Shown one piece after another: positions 37,608-44,440 of a DNA stretch of 64,000 nucleotides. The position numbers and the translations under genes were made by a program. The stretch is from the NCBI RefSeq assembly GCF_016741785.1, contig NZ_JAERRL010000002.1:248001-312000 (forward strand), read 5' to 3'. Source of the DNA: Streptomyces sp. 7-21. Lineage in GTDB: Bacteria; Actinomycetota; Actinomycetes; Streptomycetales; Streptomycetaceae. Under the pieces are notes generated by a model. The model was not told the origin of the DNA. It searched no databases and saw nothing but the letters and a program-made list of their open reading frames with translations. Within the stretch, counting starts at the first letter, position 1, and the number at the start of each line of letters is the position of its first letter.

Positions 37608-39086
37608 TCAGAGGGTAATGGTCGTGCTGCCCAGCGGCTGGCCGTCGGGGCCGAGGGCGGTGACCTGGTAGACGGTGGCACCGTCCGGCGGAGCGATCTC
37701 CGTCGTGGTCTCGAAGCCCGCGTCCGGCACGGTCTTCAGCGTCGTGAGGTCGTTCTCGCCCGGTCCGGCCGCCACGCTCCAGGAGGCGACGTCCGTGGCG
37801 CCGTTCCAGCTCATGTGCAGCTCGACGCCGTCCTCGGTCGTCTCGCCGATCACGGCGTCGGGGTCGGTGGCCGGGGTGGCGTGCCAGTCGCCGCGCTCGG
37901 CGCGGTAGCTGGACCAGCCCTGCTCGAACACGCCGGTGAAGACCGGGCTGCCCGAGGAGAACTCGACCATCTGGCCCGTGATGCCGAAGTTGACCAGCTG
38001 GTTGCCGTTCGGCAGGTGCCGGTTGGAGCCGATGTACGGGGTGAACAGCGGCGCCGAGGGCCGGAGTTCCTCGACCAGCTGCGCCGTCATGGCGTTCTCG
38101 TCCAGCACGTACGACACGCCGCGCGACAGCGGCGGGACGTGGTTGTTGCCGTTGTCGAACACCGACAGCCGCCCGTCGGGCAGCCGGCGGGCGTCGTGCT
38201 GGAAGCTGGGCATGTCGGCGGGGTTGGCGAACGTGAAGTCGCTGTTGTTGCCGCCGAAGCGCCAGATGATCTCGCCGGTGTCCGGGTCGAGCTTGTAGAC
38301 GGTGCTGGTGCCGCGCGCGCTCACCAGCAGGTTGCCGTCGGTGTCGTACTCCAGCGAGTTGGTGTGGAACAGGTCGAAGGCCTGGCCGAAGCTGGGCTGG
38401 GACAGCGACAGCTGGCTCTCGGTCACCGGCAGGTTCTCCAGCGCGGACCACTCGAAGGTGATCTCACCGGTGTCGATGACCTGTTCCTGTATGACGGAGT
38501 CGAGTATGAGGGCGTTCTGCGGGCCGCCGTACGGGCTCAGGTCGTACTGGACGGGCACGTAGCTCTGGAGCACCACGCGCTCCCCGTCCGGGCTGAAGGC
38601 GAGGTCGTGCGCGTCGGTCGCGTAGCCCTGCACGGAGAAGGTCCGGATCTCGTTGTACGACGTGTCCAGCAGGATGGCCTCGCTCTGGCTGGCGTCGCCC
38701 GGCGTGCCCGTCAGCGCGATGCGGAACAGCAGGAGCGCGGGCTGGCCCTCGTACTCGACCTGCCGGAGGTTCATGTAGTTGGTGCCGAACTCCGGCTCCT
38801 GCCACCAGACCAGCTCGCCGTTGTTGTCGTAGATCGCGGCGGCTCCCATGCCGGTGCCCAGGCTGCTGGGAGTGGTCATCAGCAGTCCGGGGTCCTCCAG
38901 GCCGGTGGGGGTGGTCGTCAGCTCCGCCACGTCTCCCTGGAGGGTGTGGAAGTCGGGGGCGGAGGACGGGGACGGCGCGGTGCCAGCGTCGGGAGCGGCG
39001 GCGCTGGCGGATGTCGCGGGGGCGAGAGCGGTGAACAGCGCGGCGGCAGCGGCGACTGCGGCGCCACCGCGTAACTGACGGATCAT
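37608..39086 (-). CDS. secreted arylsulfotransferase-family protein
   Basis: A 492-residue protein with a classic signal peptide (residues 1-30, ending ATSASAAAPD) and a beta-propeller-like body of the bacterial arylsulfotransferase (ASST-like) type. Phrases GTGMGAAAIYDNNGELVWW, TDAHDLAFSPDGERVVL, EWSALENLPV, FHTNSLEYDTDGNLLVSARG, IIWRFGGNNSDF and FQHDARRLPDGRLSVFDNG match that family, with conserved His residues in AHD, FHTNS and QHDARR. True sulfotransferases use one of these histidines as acceptor; whether this one is active is unknown. The start is ATG 39086, with AAGGAGCTTG upstream. It flanks the lasso island. Confidence 0.82.
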   Translation of the reverse strand: MIRQLRGGAAVAAAAALFTALAPATSASAAAPDAGTAPSPSSAPDFHTLQGDVAELTTTPTGLEDPGLLMTTPSSLGTGMGAAAIYDNNGELVWWQEPEFGTNYMNLRQVEYEGQPALLLFRIALTGTPGDASQSEAILLDTSYNEIRTFSVQGYATDAHDLAFSPDGERVVLQSYVPVQYDLSPYGGPQNALILDSVIQEQVIDTGEITFEWSALENLPVTESQLSLSQPSFGQAFDLFHTNSLEYDTDGNLLVSARGTSTVYKLDPDTGEIIWRFGGNNSDFTFANPADMPSFQHDARRLPDGRLSVFDNGNNHVPPLSRGVSYVLDENAMTAQLVEELRPSAPLFTPYIGSNRHLPNGNQLVNFGITGQMVEFSSGSPVFTGVFEQGWSSYRAERGDWHATPATDPDAVIGETTEDGVELHMSWNGATDVASWSVAAGPGENDLTTLKTVPDAGFETTTEIAPPDGATVYQVTALGPDGQPLGSTTITL

Positions 39087-39641
39087 GAGTCAAGCTCCTT
39101 GGATGTGGGGGATGGGCGTCCCAGGGGGGACTTCGCTCACTCATGACGCTTTGTTTCCCACGATGAACTTCTCGTATCAACGTTCGGATTAAAGGAAGAG
39201 TAAAGTCGCTGCCTGGAAGTGGTGAACGCGTTTCTACCGAACGGTTGCCCGGCCTCTGTAAAGTTTGGGCGGGAGTTTACGCGAGTTGCGCTGACGCCAC
39301 CGGGTATGAAAAGGTCCCGCGATTCCGGAAAGCCTCGGATAAAGAACTCCATGCGGGGACACGCTCTTCGCCCCCGCACCCGTACCGCCGTCCCGTCCCG
39401 CCGGATGGGGTCGCCCCCGCCCCCTCGGCGGCCCGCAGGGCGGTAGCGCGGGCGCTCAGGTCGTTGGCTATCCCAGATGGCGAGGCAGGCGCATCGTCGT
39501 CCGACTGCCGTTCGCTCCGGCAACACATGCACGAGTGATAGGCCGTTGGAGGCCAGCGAACAAGAATCGTCAGGTAGCGGCCGTTGCGACACGTTCGCGT
39601 AGTCCGCGCACGGCCGGGGACACGCTGGTTGCGCTCATCCG

Positions 39642-39738
39642 GTGAGCGAGGTCGCGGACCGATCTGGGCACTGTCACCGGGGCCACGCTCGGCTGGTGCA
39701 AGAAGGACAGGGCCGACCAGGACGAGTACTGGTACTGA
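39642..39738 (+). CDS. candidate lasso-peptide precursor (start unresolved)
   Basis: In frame from 39646 the sequence encodes TDLGTVTGATL followed by GWCKKDRADQDEYWY and a TGA at 39736. This fits a lasso precursor: Thr at -2, Gly at -8 of the leader, Gly1 and Asp9 of the core (a nine-member macrolactam), then a short tail with bulky Tyr/Trp. It lies 118 bases before the cyclase start. No ATG, GTG or TTG exists in this frame after the TGA at 39643-39645. A GTG at 39642 gives SEVAD in the neighbouring frame and joins the core only if one C near 39660 is removed. It may be a sequencing error, a decayed gene, or a chance match. The rest of 39087-39641 holds no supported gene. Confidence 0.42.
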
Positions 39739-39856
39739 TTGCCGCCTGCGCTCTCCGAGCAGTGCGCGGCGTGCCGGAATGGTCACTGAATTGCCCTGGG
39801 ACGCCGCGCCACTGCACTCGAACACCAGCGCAGGGGCCGATGAGAGGGAAGAGCCG

Positions 39857-41710
39857 GTGGAACGCTTCGTTGTTGGATTCATCGGTACCCGGCCTGGCGC
39901 CCAACCCTTATCCGTGCGCGAGATCTGTGGCGTGCCGGGGGTGTGGCTATGGGAGGCCGGCCATAACCCGGGTGAGATCGAGGTGACCGGGGCGCCAGGC
40001 CGCATCGACACATTACTGACGGCTGGGAGCTGCCTGGCCACTGCGACAGAGCGTCGTCGCGCTCTCCAAGCCGCCGCCCGTGGTGAGCTGGGACCGCTGC
40101 GCCGATTGCCTGGCAGCCATCTCATCGTCGTGCGCACTGAGTCTGGTGCATTGGTGGTCGGGGACCGTGCCGGGGTGGTTCCGGTGTATTGGCTGCCCAC
40201 CTCCGATGGAGTGTGGTGGAGCACGGCGGCTGCGGTGTTGGCCGCTCGGGCCGGTACTGAGGTCGAGCTTCCGCTGCTGCTGGGCGAAATGATGCTGTCT
40301 GGTGTCGATGTCCTGGCCGACCGGTCGTTGTTCAGATCGGTCAGGCGTGTCCCTCCTGGCGGTGTGCTCCGAGTGCCCGGCGAAGCTGCGCCCGTTGTCA
40401 AAACCGCCTCAGAACCGCCAGGTCCGGTGTCAGCACGTGAAGGCGCTCTGGAGCTGTGCACGGCGCTGTTTGAGGCAGTCGCCCGCTGGGGGCAGCGGGC
40501 TCAGCGGCTTTCTGCCGATCTGTCCGGCGGTGTGGACAGCGGCATCGTCTGCTGCCTAGCTGCCACCGTTCGGCCGCTGCTGGCCGTCACCTACACCGAT
40601 ACACACCTCATCGACGATGATGACAGTCATTACGCCCGGCGCCTCGCTGATGCTGTGCCCTCGCTCACCCACCGCATTGTGTCCGGCCAAGGCGTCTATT
40701 TCGACGGTTTGGAAGATCCTGCGGCGTTGCCGTTGACGGACAGCCCGACCTTGACCGTGGGGGCCTTGACGGTCAAAGACCCGCAGATGCGGGCCGCAGC
40801 GGAGGTCGGCAGCACGATGCACCTGACGGGGCGAGGCGGTGACAACGCGTTCTGTGTCGCTCCGACGTACGTGGTGGACATGCTGCGCGCGGGACGCTGT
40901 GCCCAGGCACTGCGCCAGGCGGTCGACCTGGCCCGCCAGCAGCGCACAGCCGTGTGGCCGGTGTGGCGGCAGCTCGCCCAGACAGCCGCCATCAGTTACC
41001 GTGCCGCGCTACGCCAGCTCGCTTCGCGCCTGGCACGGCCAGCTGCAACGCCGCAGAATCCCAGAGGCGGTGAAAACCTGGCCTGGTGCACCACCACCCC
41101 CGCTGCACGCTGGCTCACCCACGACGGCCGCGCCGTCCTGTCGCACCTGGTGGCCAACCGCGCCGCGTCAGCACCCTCTAGCGGCGTGTCAGCGGCCGCT
41201 CTCCATGAACGGCTGGCGGTGGAGGCGATGGGCGCCGCGCAGAACGCCTTTCAGGACATCGCCCGCGCTCGATGGGGCCTGGCTGTGCACGCGCCGTTCC
41301 TCGACAACACGGTGGTCGATGCCTGGCGGCTTATCCCGTCGGCCCAGCGGACCGCCCCGGGCGTGTACAAACCACTCGCCCGCGCCGCCTTCACCGGGCT
41401 GGTACCCGATTTTCTCTTGAGACGACATTCCAAGACGGACTTCATCGATAGCGTCACTACCGGGCTGATCCACAACGCCCGTCCGGCTGAAGCGATCTTG
41501 CGTTCCTCCCGCCTTGCCGCCGCTGGCCTGATCGATGGTCTAGCCGCTGTGGCGGACCTGCGCGCCGCTGTCGCTGGGGCGCCGGTACCGCTGGCCCCAC
41601 TGCACCATCTCCTCGCCGTCGAGACCTGGCTGGCCCACTACGACACCGCTCTGTCTCCCGCTGCATGGAGCCCGCACCCCGCAGCAACCGACACGGAAGG
41701 AACAGCATGA
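39857..41710 (+). CDS. lasso-peptide cyclase (asparagine synthetase-like)
   Basis: A 617-residue member of the asparagine synthetase B-like family. The N-terminal third resembles a glutaminase domain without its N-terminal cysteine. The synthetase half has the ATP-pyrophosphatase loop LSADLSGGVDSGIV near residue 220 and the later phrases LTGRGGDNAFCV, FQDIARARWGLAVHAPFLDN and FLLRRHSKTDF, typical of lasso cyclases that adenylate the Asp/Glu side chain and form the ring amide. Two TTA codons (39908-39910 and 40013-40015) predict bldA dependence. GTG 39857 has GAGAGGGAAGAG upstream. Its stop overlaps the ATG of the next gene by four bases. Confidence 0.85.
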   Translation: MERFVVGFIGTRPGAQPLSVREICGVPGVWLWEAGHNPGEIEVTGAPGRIDTLLTAGSCLATATERRRALQAAARGELGPLRRLPGSHLIVVRTESGALVVGDRAGVVPVYWLPTSDGVWWSTAAAVLAARAGTEVELPLLLGEMMLSGVDVLADRSLFRSVRRVPPGGVLRVPGEAAPVVKTASEPPGPVSAREGALELCTALFEAVARWGQRAQRLSADLSGGVDSGIVCCLAATVRPLLAVTYTDTHLIDDDDSHYARRLADAVPSLTHRIVSGQGVYFDGLEDPAALPLTDSPTLTVGALTVKDPQMRAAAEVGSTMHLTGRGGDNAFCVAPTYVVDMLRAGRCAQALRQAVDLARQQRTAVWPVWRQLAQTAAISYRAALRQLASRLARPAATPQNPRGGENLAWCTTTPAARWLTHDGRAVLSHLVANRAASAPSSGVSAAALHERLAVEAMGAAQNAFQDIARARWGLAVHAPFLDNTVVDAWRLIPSAQRTAPGVYKPLARAAFTGLVPDFLLRRHSKTDFIDSVTTGLIHNARPAEAILRSSRLAAAGLIDGLAAVADLRAAVAGAPVPLAPLHHLLAVETWLAHYDTALSPAAWSPHPAATDTEGTA

Positions 41711-42423
41711 TGACCGGGCCAACAGTGTTCACCGCCCGTCTGCCGGATGGTGCCGCGGCCGTGATGGATATCCGGACCGGCCGTGGCCGCTGGTGCCACC
41801 TCAACCCCACCGCCGCTGCTCTATGGCTCGCGCTGGCCGCCGGCACACCCGCTCACCAGGCGGTCGATGACCTCACCACCCGCTGTGCCGCCCGCGGTGC
41901 TGACCCGGCCAATGTGCGCACCGACCTTGCCCACCTCGTTGCTCGCTTCCAGGCCCTGGGATGGCTCTCTACGTTGGCGGCACCAGTCTCCCAGCCGCCC
42001 GCCCCTACCGTGCGGCCGTGTCCGGGGGACGTTCGACTCACTCCGACCGACCGCATCATCGCGTTCCTCGCCCTTACCGCAGCGCTGGCAATGCTGCGCC
42101 TGGTACCCATACGCGTCACAATCGCAGCGCTACGTGCCCTGCGAAACGTCGTGCCCGCCGCACCGGCCAGCGCCGATGTGGCCGACAAGCAGCTCGTCGC
42201 AGTCCGGCATGTCGCACGGCACTGGCCGATACGGCTGGCCTGCCTGGAGGAATCCGCCGCCTGCTTCCTGGCCGCACGGCTGCGCCGTCGCGGCGTCACC
42301 TTTGTGTTAGGAGCACGCACCGCCCCGGCCGCCGCTCATGCCTGGATCGAGACCGAGGATCAGGTCATCGGCCAGCACTCCTCGAACCGCGCCTGGCCCT
42401 ACGTACCGGCACTGCGCATCTGA
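41707..42423 (+). CDS. fused RRE (PqqD-like) and lasso leader protease
   Basis: A 238-residue two-domain protein. Residues 1-90 are a PqqD-like RiPP recognition element (MDIRTGRGRWCHLNPTAAAL, then FQALGWLSTL), which binds the precursor leader. Residues about 110-238 are a transglutaminase-like B2 protease with catalytic Cys179 in RLACLEESAACFLAARLRRR and His211 in AAAHAWIETEDQ. In most actinobacterial lasso clusters these are two separate proteins (B1 and B2). A TTA codon lies at 42307-42309. ATG 41707 overlaps the cyclase stop, with GGAAGGAA upstream. Confidence 0.82.
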   Translation: MMTGPTVFTARLPDGAAAVMDIRTGRGRWCHLNPTAAALWLALAAGTPAHQAVDDLTTRCAARGADPANVRTDLAHLVARFQALGWLSTLAAPVSQPPAPTVRPCPGDVRLTPTDRIIAFLALTAALAMLRLVPIRVTIAALRALRNVVPAAPASADVADKQLVAVRHVARHWPIRLACLEESAACFLAARLRRRGVTFVLGARTAPAAAHAWIETEDQVIGQHSSNRAWPYVPALRI

Positions 42424-42469
42424 AAGCAGCCAAGGGCGGAGCAAAGTCGGTTGACGCACGACGCCGGGG

Positions 42470-44440
42470 TTGTCCACAGACCTAGCCACCACACCGTTCG
42501 TTCGGCAGGGCATGACCGCATCGACATCCGACCGCCCTCGACGTGGCAAGGGCAGCAGCGACGCACCGCAGCTTCCCCTGCCGAGGATGAGCAACAGCGC
42601 CGAACGGCACGACGACGCTCTGGCTGCTGGGTGGTGGACCACCCTTCGCCGTCTGCCTCACCTCTCGGCTATCGCACTACGTCTGGCATGGTCCGCCGAC
42701 CCATATGCCGTCGCGCTCACCGGACTGCTTCAGCTGCTGACCGGCGCCGTCACAGTTGTGGGCCTGTACGCCACGACCAGCGCCCTAACCCCCCTTCTCC
42801 TGCCTGACCACGGTTCCCGTCCCCTCGCTGACCGTCTGATGCAGGCGCTGCCGGCTCTCCTGATCGTCACCGCCGCCGGCTGTGCCCGCGCCCTGGTCAG
42901 CGCGCTGACCATCGCCACCACCGCCCGCATCGGCCCACGAGTGAACGGACTGGCCGAAGTCCGCTATCTGGCCGCCGCCACCCAGGCACCTTTGATCTGC
43001 TATGACGACGCGGCTTGGGCTGATCAGTCCGAAGCGGCCAGCCGGGCCGCCAAGGACGCCCACCTGATGGTCGAGGCGCTGACAGCGGTGACCGCCTCCC
43101 TCCTCGGACTGGCCGCGGCCGGCGGAGTCCTTGCCCACCTGCACCCCCTGCTGCTTCCGCTGCTCCTGCTGGCCGTCATCCCCCGCGGGTTTGCTGCCGT
43201 GCGGGCGGCCCGCGCTGCCTACCTCGCCGACCGTCACACCCTCGCTGACCGTCGCCTGCGCCACCTGTGGATGTTCCAGACAGCCGGCCGCGATCATGCC
43301 CTCGAAGTCCGCGCCTACACGCTCCGGCCCTGGCTCCTGGGCCGCTTCCGCGAGGTCGCCACACACTTGGAGGACGTCGCCGCCCAGGTGGGGCGGAGGG
43401 CAGCCCGCTACCAGCTGGCTGGTGACGCCGCCGCTGGCATCGCCATTGGCCTCGTCTACGCCGTGCTGCTGTGGCTGACCGCGACCGGGCGCATTCCACC
43501 ACCCGCCGCTGGCACTGTCGTCATCGCCGTCCAGACCAGCCAACGCCTGCTCGCGAGCCTCGTCCAAGGCATCAACAACGCTTACACCACCGGTCTTTAC
43601 CTGGCCGACTGGCATGACTTCCTCATCGATACGGCAGCCCGTACCCGCCTACCGGCAGCCTGTGAACCTGTGCCGGACAACCCCAAGGTGATCGAGGCCA
43701 AGGGCGTCACCTTCGTGTATCCCGGCAGCGAACATCCCGCCCTGCGCGATATCACCGTCACCATTCATCGCGGGGAGGTTCTGGCCATGGTCGGCCCCAA
43801 CGGGTCCGGCAAGTCCACTCTCGCCAAACTGCTGGCAGGCCTGTGTACCCCGACGAAGGGAACCGTCACCTGGGATGACACCGACGTCTCGCGAGCTGAC
43901 CCCGAACACCTCTGGCAGCGCCTGGCCATGTTCCCTCAGATCTGCGCGCGCTGGCACGTCACCGCCCGCGAAAACATCACTCTCGGTCAGGGTGACCAGG
44001 ATGAACGCAGCATCGCCGCCGCTGCGGCGGCCGTCGGCGCGGACAAGGTTCTTGAAGATCTGCCCGAAGGCCTGGACACCAACCTCGCACCCTCCTGGTG
44101 GGGCGGACGCGACCTCTCTGGCGGTCAGTGGCAGCGCATCGCTGCTGCCCGCGCCGTCTACCGCAACGCCCCCGTCCTCGTCTGTGATGAGCCCACCTCA
44201 GCGCTGGACCCGCTCGCCGAGGAAGCCGTCTACCGGCGTATCCAGGCCCTCGCTGAGGGAAAGACCGTCATTCTCATCAGCCACCGTCTCGGCGCCACCC
44301 GCACCGCAGACCGCATCCTCGTTCTGGACGGCGGCGTGATTATCGAGGAAGGGACCCATGAATCCTTGCTCAGCCGCGACGGGATGTATGCGGCCATGTG
44401 GCGGGCACAGGCAGACACGTACGCAAACAGCCCTGCATGA
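42470..44440 (+). CDS. lasso-locus ABC transporter (fused permease and ATPase)
   Basis: A 656-residue half-transporter exporter. A polar head of about 55 residues precedes a six-helix type 1 membrane domain (about residues 75-360), followed by an ABC ATPase with Walker A GPNGSGKST near residue 442, signature LSGGQWQRIA and Walker B VLVCDEPTSALDP, then ILISHRLGATRTADRI. It would homodimerise to export the mature peptide and give immunity (role by analogy to lasso D proteins). The start is uncertain: TTG 42470 gives the longest form, and ATG 42512 and ATG 42587 are alternatives, all with weak ribosome-binding sites. Confidence 0.85.
   Translation: MSTDLATTPFVRQGMTASTSDRPRRGKGSSDAPQLPLPRMSNSAERHDDALAAGWWTTLRRLPHLSAIALRLAWSADPYAVALTGLLQLLTGAVTVVGLYATTSALTPLLLPDHGSRPLADRLMQALPALLIVTAAGCARALVSALTIATTARIGPRVNGLAEVRYLAAATQAPLICYDDAAWADQSEAASRAAKDAHLMVEALTAVTASLLGLAAAGGVLAHLHPLLLPLLLLAVIPRGFAAVRAARAAYLADRHTLADRRLRHLWMFQTAGRDHALEVRAYTLRPWLLGRFREVATHLEDVAAQVGRRAARYQLAGDAAAGIAIGLVYAVLLWLTATGRIPPPAAGTVVIAVQTSQRLLASLVQGINNAYTTGLYLADWHDFLIDTAARTRLPAACEPVPDNPKVIEAKGVTFVYPGSEHPALRDITVTIHRGEVLAMVGPNGSGKSTLAKLLAGLCTPTKGTVTWDDTDVSRADPEHLWQRLAMFPQICARWHVTARENITLGQGDQDERSIAAAAAAVGADKVLEDLPEGLDTNLAPSWWGGRDLSGGQWQRIAAARAVYRNAPVLVCDEPTSALDPLAEEAVYRRIQALAEGKTVILISHRLGATRTADRILVLDGGVIIEEGTHESLLSRDGMYAAMWRAQADTYANSPA

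Follow-up and report, generated by a model that had tools for sequence, protein, structure and literature searches.

A fused-B lasso peptide locus of Streptomyces with a broken precursor gene and a retained exporter, a predicted immunity gene

Does a lasso peptide locus whose cyclase, protease and exporter genes are all open still make a peptide, and, if it does not, what might keep those genes in place? This question is raised by a locus of Streptomyces sp. 7-21, lying within a 64,000-nucleotide (nt) stretch of DNA from a draft assembly of 58 contigs (hereafter the window), where the genes for a macrolactam-cyclase homologue (C), a protein that joins a leader-binding domain to a protease domain (B) and an ABC exporter (D) follow one another in the order C-B-D. 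A first-pass annotation, made from the sequence alone, had taken these genes for a working, compact lasso locus of a distinct subfamily, an interpretation that our analysis bears out in part. Here, we found that the precursor gene (A) upstream of C is broken. The explanation that we favor, and hold to be probable, is that the window carries a lasso gene set that belongs to a fused-B clade and has intact C, B and D genes but a broken A, that the set likely yields no peptide of its own, and that D is a predicted immunity gene.

The remnant of A was identified by profile match at 39646..39738 (+), outside the coordinates of the first-pass annotation, which did not report it. It comprises a leader end (DLGTVTGATL), the core GWCKKDRADQDEYWY and a stop codon, the whole peptide reading ARSRTDLGTVTGATL and then the core. 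A profile of six relatives' precursors, built with the window excluded and run on all six frames of the window, gave a single site (39646-39735, E 4.2e-11, 39.0 bits), the second-best match having an E value of 2.7 and the best score among 10 locally shuffled windows being 8.0 bits. The remnant ends 118 nt before C, and the same gap measures 103-137 nt in five annotated relatives. Nucleotide similarity to the relatives is clear from about 39654 onward and patchy before that point; the remnant keeps Thr at position -2 and Asp at core position 9, and has Gln at core position 10. Its frame is closed upstream by a stop at 39643-39645 and holds no ATG, GTG or TTG; with the frame closed and the start codon missing, the precursor gene of the window is thus broken. 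An open precursor frame with Thr at -2 and an acidic residue at core positions 7-9 was not found in the window and was found in 13 relatives. Farther upstream, a GGAGG read in the sequence at 39548..39552 (+) is a putative ribosome site with no start codon at the usual distance, and a GGAGG-like stretch stands shortly 5' of the precursor ATG in most of the 11 relatives compared. The same 30-residue frame at 39646 had also been considered as a piece of an IS3-type transposase helix-turn-helix, a candidate that was dropped given the absence of a Pfam match and the precursor profile match described above.

The three remaining reading frames are all intact. Profile matches and a tree place C at 39857..41710 (+), with its Asn_synthase domain at 40463-41632 (PF00733, 118.4 bits) and the SGGVDS motif already pointed out in the first-pass annotation. 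The best named family for C is the albusnodin/ikarugamycin cyclase model NF033561, at 290.4 bits against a cut-off of 300; on three relatives the same model gave 318 (L057), 287.8 (L063) and 284.5 (L068) bits. The possibility that C is a non-lasso asparagine synthetase found no support, as the true asparagine synthase model scores C at 59 against a cut-off of 267, and C has the features of an asparagine-synthetase-type macrolactam cyclase. No true asparagine synthetase above the TIGR01536 cut-off was found in the strain's own genome, and C was therefore placed by family-model scores and not by an asparagine-synthetase-rooted tree.

Profile matches and alignment define B at 41707..42423 (+), where a single frame encodes a leader-binding RRE/PqqD domain (41764-41967; PqqD at residues 20-87, 30.1 bits, cut-off 23.4) and a lasso B2-type protease domain (42085-42387; Transglut_core3 at residues 127-227, 55.1 bits, cut-off 26). 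The lasso B2 protease model NF033537 scores B at 65.6 bits, above its cut-off of 33, and the proposed protease residues Cys179 and His211 proved invariant in 11 aligned B sequences, the window counted, as in a transglutaminase-like B2 protease; the structural match of this half is weak. With the B model, VIA-align returned an RRE match and little support for the protease half, and Foldseek returned nothing at E <= 0.001. Twelve residues past the active-site His, all 11 aligned members have a Gln (IGQ; window 42367-42375, B residues 221-223), a position that we take to be occupied by a catalytic Asp in McjB-type proteases. The ABC exporter gene D was assigned by profile match at 42512..44440 (+), with a possible earlier start at TTG 42470. 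The overlapping starts that had been described for the three genes hold for C and B, whose frames share 4 nt, and not for B and D, which are separated by 88 nt, or by 46 nt if D begins at the TTG.

How the locus relates to others was addressed in 392 genomes of the genus, with seven candidates scored per genome for B and three each for D and C, such that extra copies may escape these counts. The survey returned 13 fused-B family matches in 12 genomes (at least 195 bits, next 131.6), one of which has an inner stop while another lacks the first 47 positions, together with 11 family C genes in 10 genomes (at least 655 bits, next 417) and 15 D family matches in 14 genomes (at least 911 bits, next group 594). 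Seven further loci came from named genomes and seven from plasmid records, all of Streptomyces, and complete sets are present on four of the seven plasmid records (L063, L064, L065 and L067). Altogether, 13 other Streptomyces loci carry an intact precursor (leader Thr-2, core Gly1 to Asp9) with C, fused B and D, in the order A-C-B-D. In a maximum-likelihood tree of 39 cyclase rows, the 15 fused-B loci, including the window, are split off by a branch with 100/100 support, and no shuffle of 500 gave a value as low for this grouping. In all 15 clade loci one frame holds the B match, which is truncated in L068; of the remaining 24 rows, L051 and L161 likewise have both B domains in one frame and the rest have two frames or one domain, although rows L145-L164 carry about 1.5 kb of flank and an adjoining B1 gene may be out of view. 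By the measure of sequence comparison, the fused-B Streptomyces subfamily is real, because the cyclases of the fused-B loci form one clade with that of the window.

The second part of the subfamily proposal, a leader recognition of its own, was not supported. The N-terminal domain of B resembles lasso B1, and the leaders are of the usual kind: 16 clade precursors (15 distinct), a count that excludes four more distant precursors of L051, L052 and L053, all carry Thr-2 in the leader and Asp9 in the core, and an aromatic-x(1-2)-Pro leader motif is present in 14. Core position 10 is Asp or His in all 16. These precursors would yield cores of 15-21 residues with a nine-residue ring. Several loci of the wider set show further features: two tandem precursors with different cores lie 5' of one cyclase in L044, L057 and L051; a regulator gene (XRE or helix-turn-helix) is located slightly upstream of the precursor in L063, L064, L065, L067 and L068, with a M20/M25/M40 metallo-hydrolase gene between the two in L064 and L067; and the set on the S. 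scopuliridis plasmid (L063:9981-14702) is followed by TnsA-like, integrase, ATP-binding and TniQ genes in a Tn7-like arrangement.

Intactness was judged in 24 loci, the window included, and revealed uneven decay. Complete A-C-B-D sets number 13 (L044, L045, L057, L059, L060, L061, L063, L064, L065, L067, L100, L101 and L102), and 11 loci are incomplete (the window, L041, L046, L056, L058, L062, L066, L068, L069, L103 and L165). Among the incomplete loci, the D frame is intact in eight (all but L041, L062 and L068), B in three (the window, L046 and L056), C in two (the window and L068) and A in L068 alone; scanning the nine loci other than the window and L068 for precursors returned no match at E up to 0.5. 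C remnants adjoin B in L056 and L103, and partial, frame-shifted C genes are present in L041 and L046, so these loci once held more genes. Homology to the nearest intact relative breaks off at different points in L066, L069 and L103, which points to separate losses. Within the 392-genome sample, D stands beside C at all 11 family C genes, and 3 of the 14 D genes with readable surroundings lack C (G156, G054 and G365), the D gene of G028 being excluded as it lies at a contig end. Taken together, these counts are suggestive of D outlasting C in decaying loci, and the most economical account is that the cluster of the window has lost its peptide gene and probably yields no product of its own, in a clade whose exporter is mostly lost last.

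Selection on the retained genes was assessed in three orphan loci (L066, L069 and L103) and four intact controls, as the ratio of non-synonymous to synonymous changes per site (pN/pS), from changes unique to the orphan branch. The orphan D genes contain no stops and gave ratios of 0.16 in L066 (26 synonymous, 11 non-synonymous changes), 0.17 in L069 (36 and 16) and 0.24 in L103 (57 and 36), where a 2-base gap at the very end of the alignment falls outside the counted codons and the frame is open over 660 codons. Thus, D is under purifying selection in three loci whose biosynthetic genes are gone. B is damaged in the same loci, by a stop in L066, an N-terminal truncation of about 121 residues in L069 and gaps that shift the frame in L103, and it is these lesions, not its rate of change, that identify it as broken. 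In the window itself, the corresponding substitution-rate ratios (dN/dS) of C, B and D fall inside the spread of five intact loci, and there is no clear sign of relaxed selection on C and B, synonymous distances near or above 1 making this a weak test.

On this basis, we propose the following scheme. In the intact relatives, the N-terminal domain of the fused B would bind the precursor leader and the protein would cleave after Thr-x; C would close the ring between Gly1 and Asp9, and D would export the product and shield the producing cell. In the window, A would have been lost and D kept as a defense against relatives still making peptides of this kind. This last step draws on the self-immunity to microcin J25 conferred by the exporter McjD, as described in PMC5641919; since exporter self-immunity is known there, the retention of D may be explained as protection from peptide-making relatives. 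From its retention and constraint, D is likely to be an exporter-immunity gene. More tentatively, and with less than even confidence, we suggest that the loci of this Streptomyces clade, often on plasmids, undergo a biased decay in which the precursor, the cyclase and then the protease are lost repeatedly while D survives, selected as a stand-alone resistance gene against peptide-producing siblings; the window would represent the first step, with the precursor lost and the enzymes whole.

Several points weigh against this scheme. The window sequence comes from a draft assembly. The opposite case exists once, in the plasmid locus L068, where A and C are intact, B is cut and D is absent. Most loci were found via B, which favors those whose B-D end survives, and the asymmetry in the 392-genome sample is 3 to 0; given this mode of discovery and the small numbers, the asymmetry between D and C is not proven. 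Moreover, the intact D controls gave pN/pS of 0.08, 0.08, 0.17 and 0.18, leaving room for a slight elevation in the orphans, and part of each orphan branch predates the gene loss. For B, the orphans (0.37, 0.47 and 0.50) are not clearly faster than the intact loci (0.15, 0.43, 0.43 and 0.35), the B count of intact L065 being rough owing to several alignment gaps. Finally, C of the window departs at 11 of 116 otherwise invariant columns, the second highest number among 11 loci; together with the dN/dS spread, these deviations fit a recent loss of A.

The alternative that survives best, although we regard it as unlikely, is that A is gone and the remaining genes stay since D exports something other than a lasso peptide. 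D belongs to a large exporter superfamily, and the orphan D of L165 has no lasso gene beside it (a weak B-like match there, at E 4e-4, was not borne out by profile). Against this, the orphan D genes stay within the lasso D family, scoring at least 911 bits where the next group reaches 594, and remnants of C or B adjoin several of them. Quite improbable, too, is a sequencing or assembly error in an A gene that is intact in the living strain, which would make the locus an ordinary working fused-B lasso cluster. The intact C, B and D genes with dN/dS values like those of intact loci, and the 58-contig assembly, would be compatible with such an error; however, several features are gone at once, the core frame being preceded by a stop and devoid of a start codon and the leader similarity being patchy, and the genomes searched for comparison offered no second copy of the region. 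An intact copy of the same locus in a near relative was absent from 150 relatives, from 199 or 392 genus genomes (overlapping samples) and from the plasmid collection (best 49%), and the best match in named genomes reached 52%.

The genome of Streptomyces sp. 7-21 holds other lasso loci. One is a second fused-B locus (L046; G000 contig C55, 64000-77000), in which C is missing the N-terminal half and spreads over more than one frame, the frames of the fused B (35% identical) and of D are open, D scores 528 bits, outside the D family gap, and no family precursor was found. Two others lie at L168:5866-5991 (+) on contig C45 and L169:3208-3372 (-) on contig C3, where short frames carry a Y..P.L motif and resemble intact precursors of the ordinary lasso type. 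That B and C of the window process a precursor encoded elsewhere in the genome would accord with their intactness and with these precursor-like frames, yet the C45 and C3 loci possess their own C and B2 genes, and a scan of the strain's genome and the window found no second precursor of the family (remnant E 4.7e-8, next match 0.96); we consider this very unlikely. Least probable of all is the initial reading of a working locus with its own kind of leader recognition, for although the fused-B clade is real and has intact relatives, the precursor is broken, the relatives' leaders are usual and the N-terminal domain is B1-like.

If our preferred explanation of a broken precursor and a protective exporter is true, orphan D genes would flag lasso peptides that matter in streptomycete competition, as well as exporters sufficient alone for immunity, and pairs of an intact producer and an orphan-D relative are available for a direct test. 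The locus also carries a warning for genome mining, as the presence of B, C and D is not enough for a cluster to be a producer. The fused-B clade supplies 15 distinct intact precursors with predicted masses; for the complete set of Streptomyces sp. AM 4-1-1 (L067), the predicted macrolactam has an [M+H]+ of 1622.647.

The surroundings of the locus call for a more modest description than the low-GC island between conserved core genes that had been suggested. The guanine-plus-cytosine (GC) content is 0.656-0.712 across 1-kb windows starting at 39000 to 44000, and mostly 0.70-0.76 around them, a modest dip that confirms the lower value; GC is already 0.67-0.70 within the arylsulfotransferase gene and again 0.68-0.69 at 48.5-50 kb. 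Neither flanking gene belongs to a conserved core. Of 101 genus genomes, two hold a match to the arylsulfotransferase at E <= 1e-80 and 20 hold one to the tartrate dehydrogenase at E <= 1e-100, with at least 80% identity in three; the strain's own genome is included in each of these counts.

Among known systems, albusnodin is the nearest by cyclase family, NF033561 being the best named model for C, but the cyclases of the window and of two of the three tested relatives fall below its cut-off. Albusnodin requires an acetyltransferase acting on a conserved Lys10, according to passages of PMC9266682; here, the acceptor position is occupied by Gln in the remnant and by Asp or His in all 16 relatives' precursors, and no acetyltransferase was found among the annotated genes around four intact sets, where the gene table is incomplete, the window not being searched by model. 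The A C B1 B2 D clusters of actinobacteria (lariatin, sviceucin and streptomonomicin) share the RRE, protease and exporter with our locus, whose relatives follow the order A-C-B-D; they differ in that B1 and B2 are separate proteins there and a single protein here. Passages of PMC5067487 describe split B proteins in clusters of this type and intact B in proteobacterial ones, and report that production is still possible after artificial fusing or splitting of B. Microcin J25 (McjA-D) resembles the locus in its fused B, cyclase C and exporter D; it is proteobacterial and complete. The present locus has a broken precursor, and in several Streptomyces relatives D persists after A and C are gone. 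A combination of a lasso peptide with orphan immunity had no match in the open-licence literature, where absence proves little. In bacteriocin and toxin systems, a protective immunity gene can survive the loss of the weapon; the locus described here differs in that the retained gene is a lasso exporter, for which protection is predicted.

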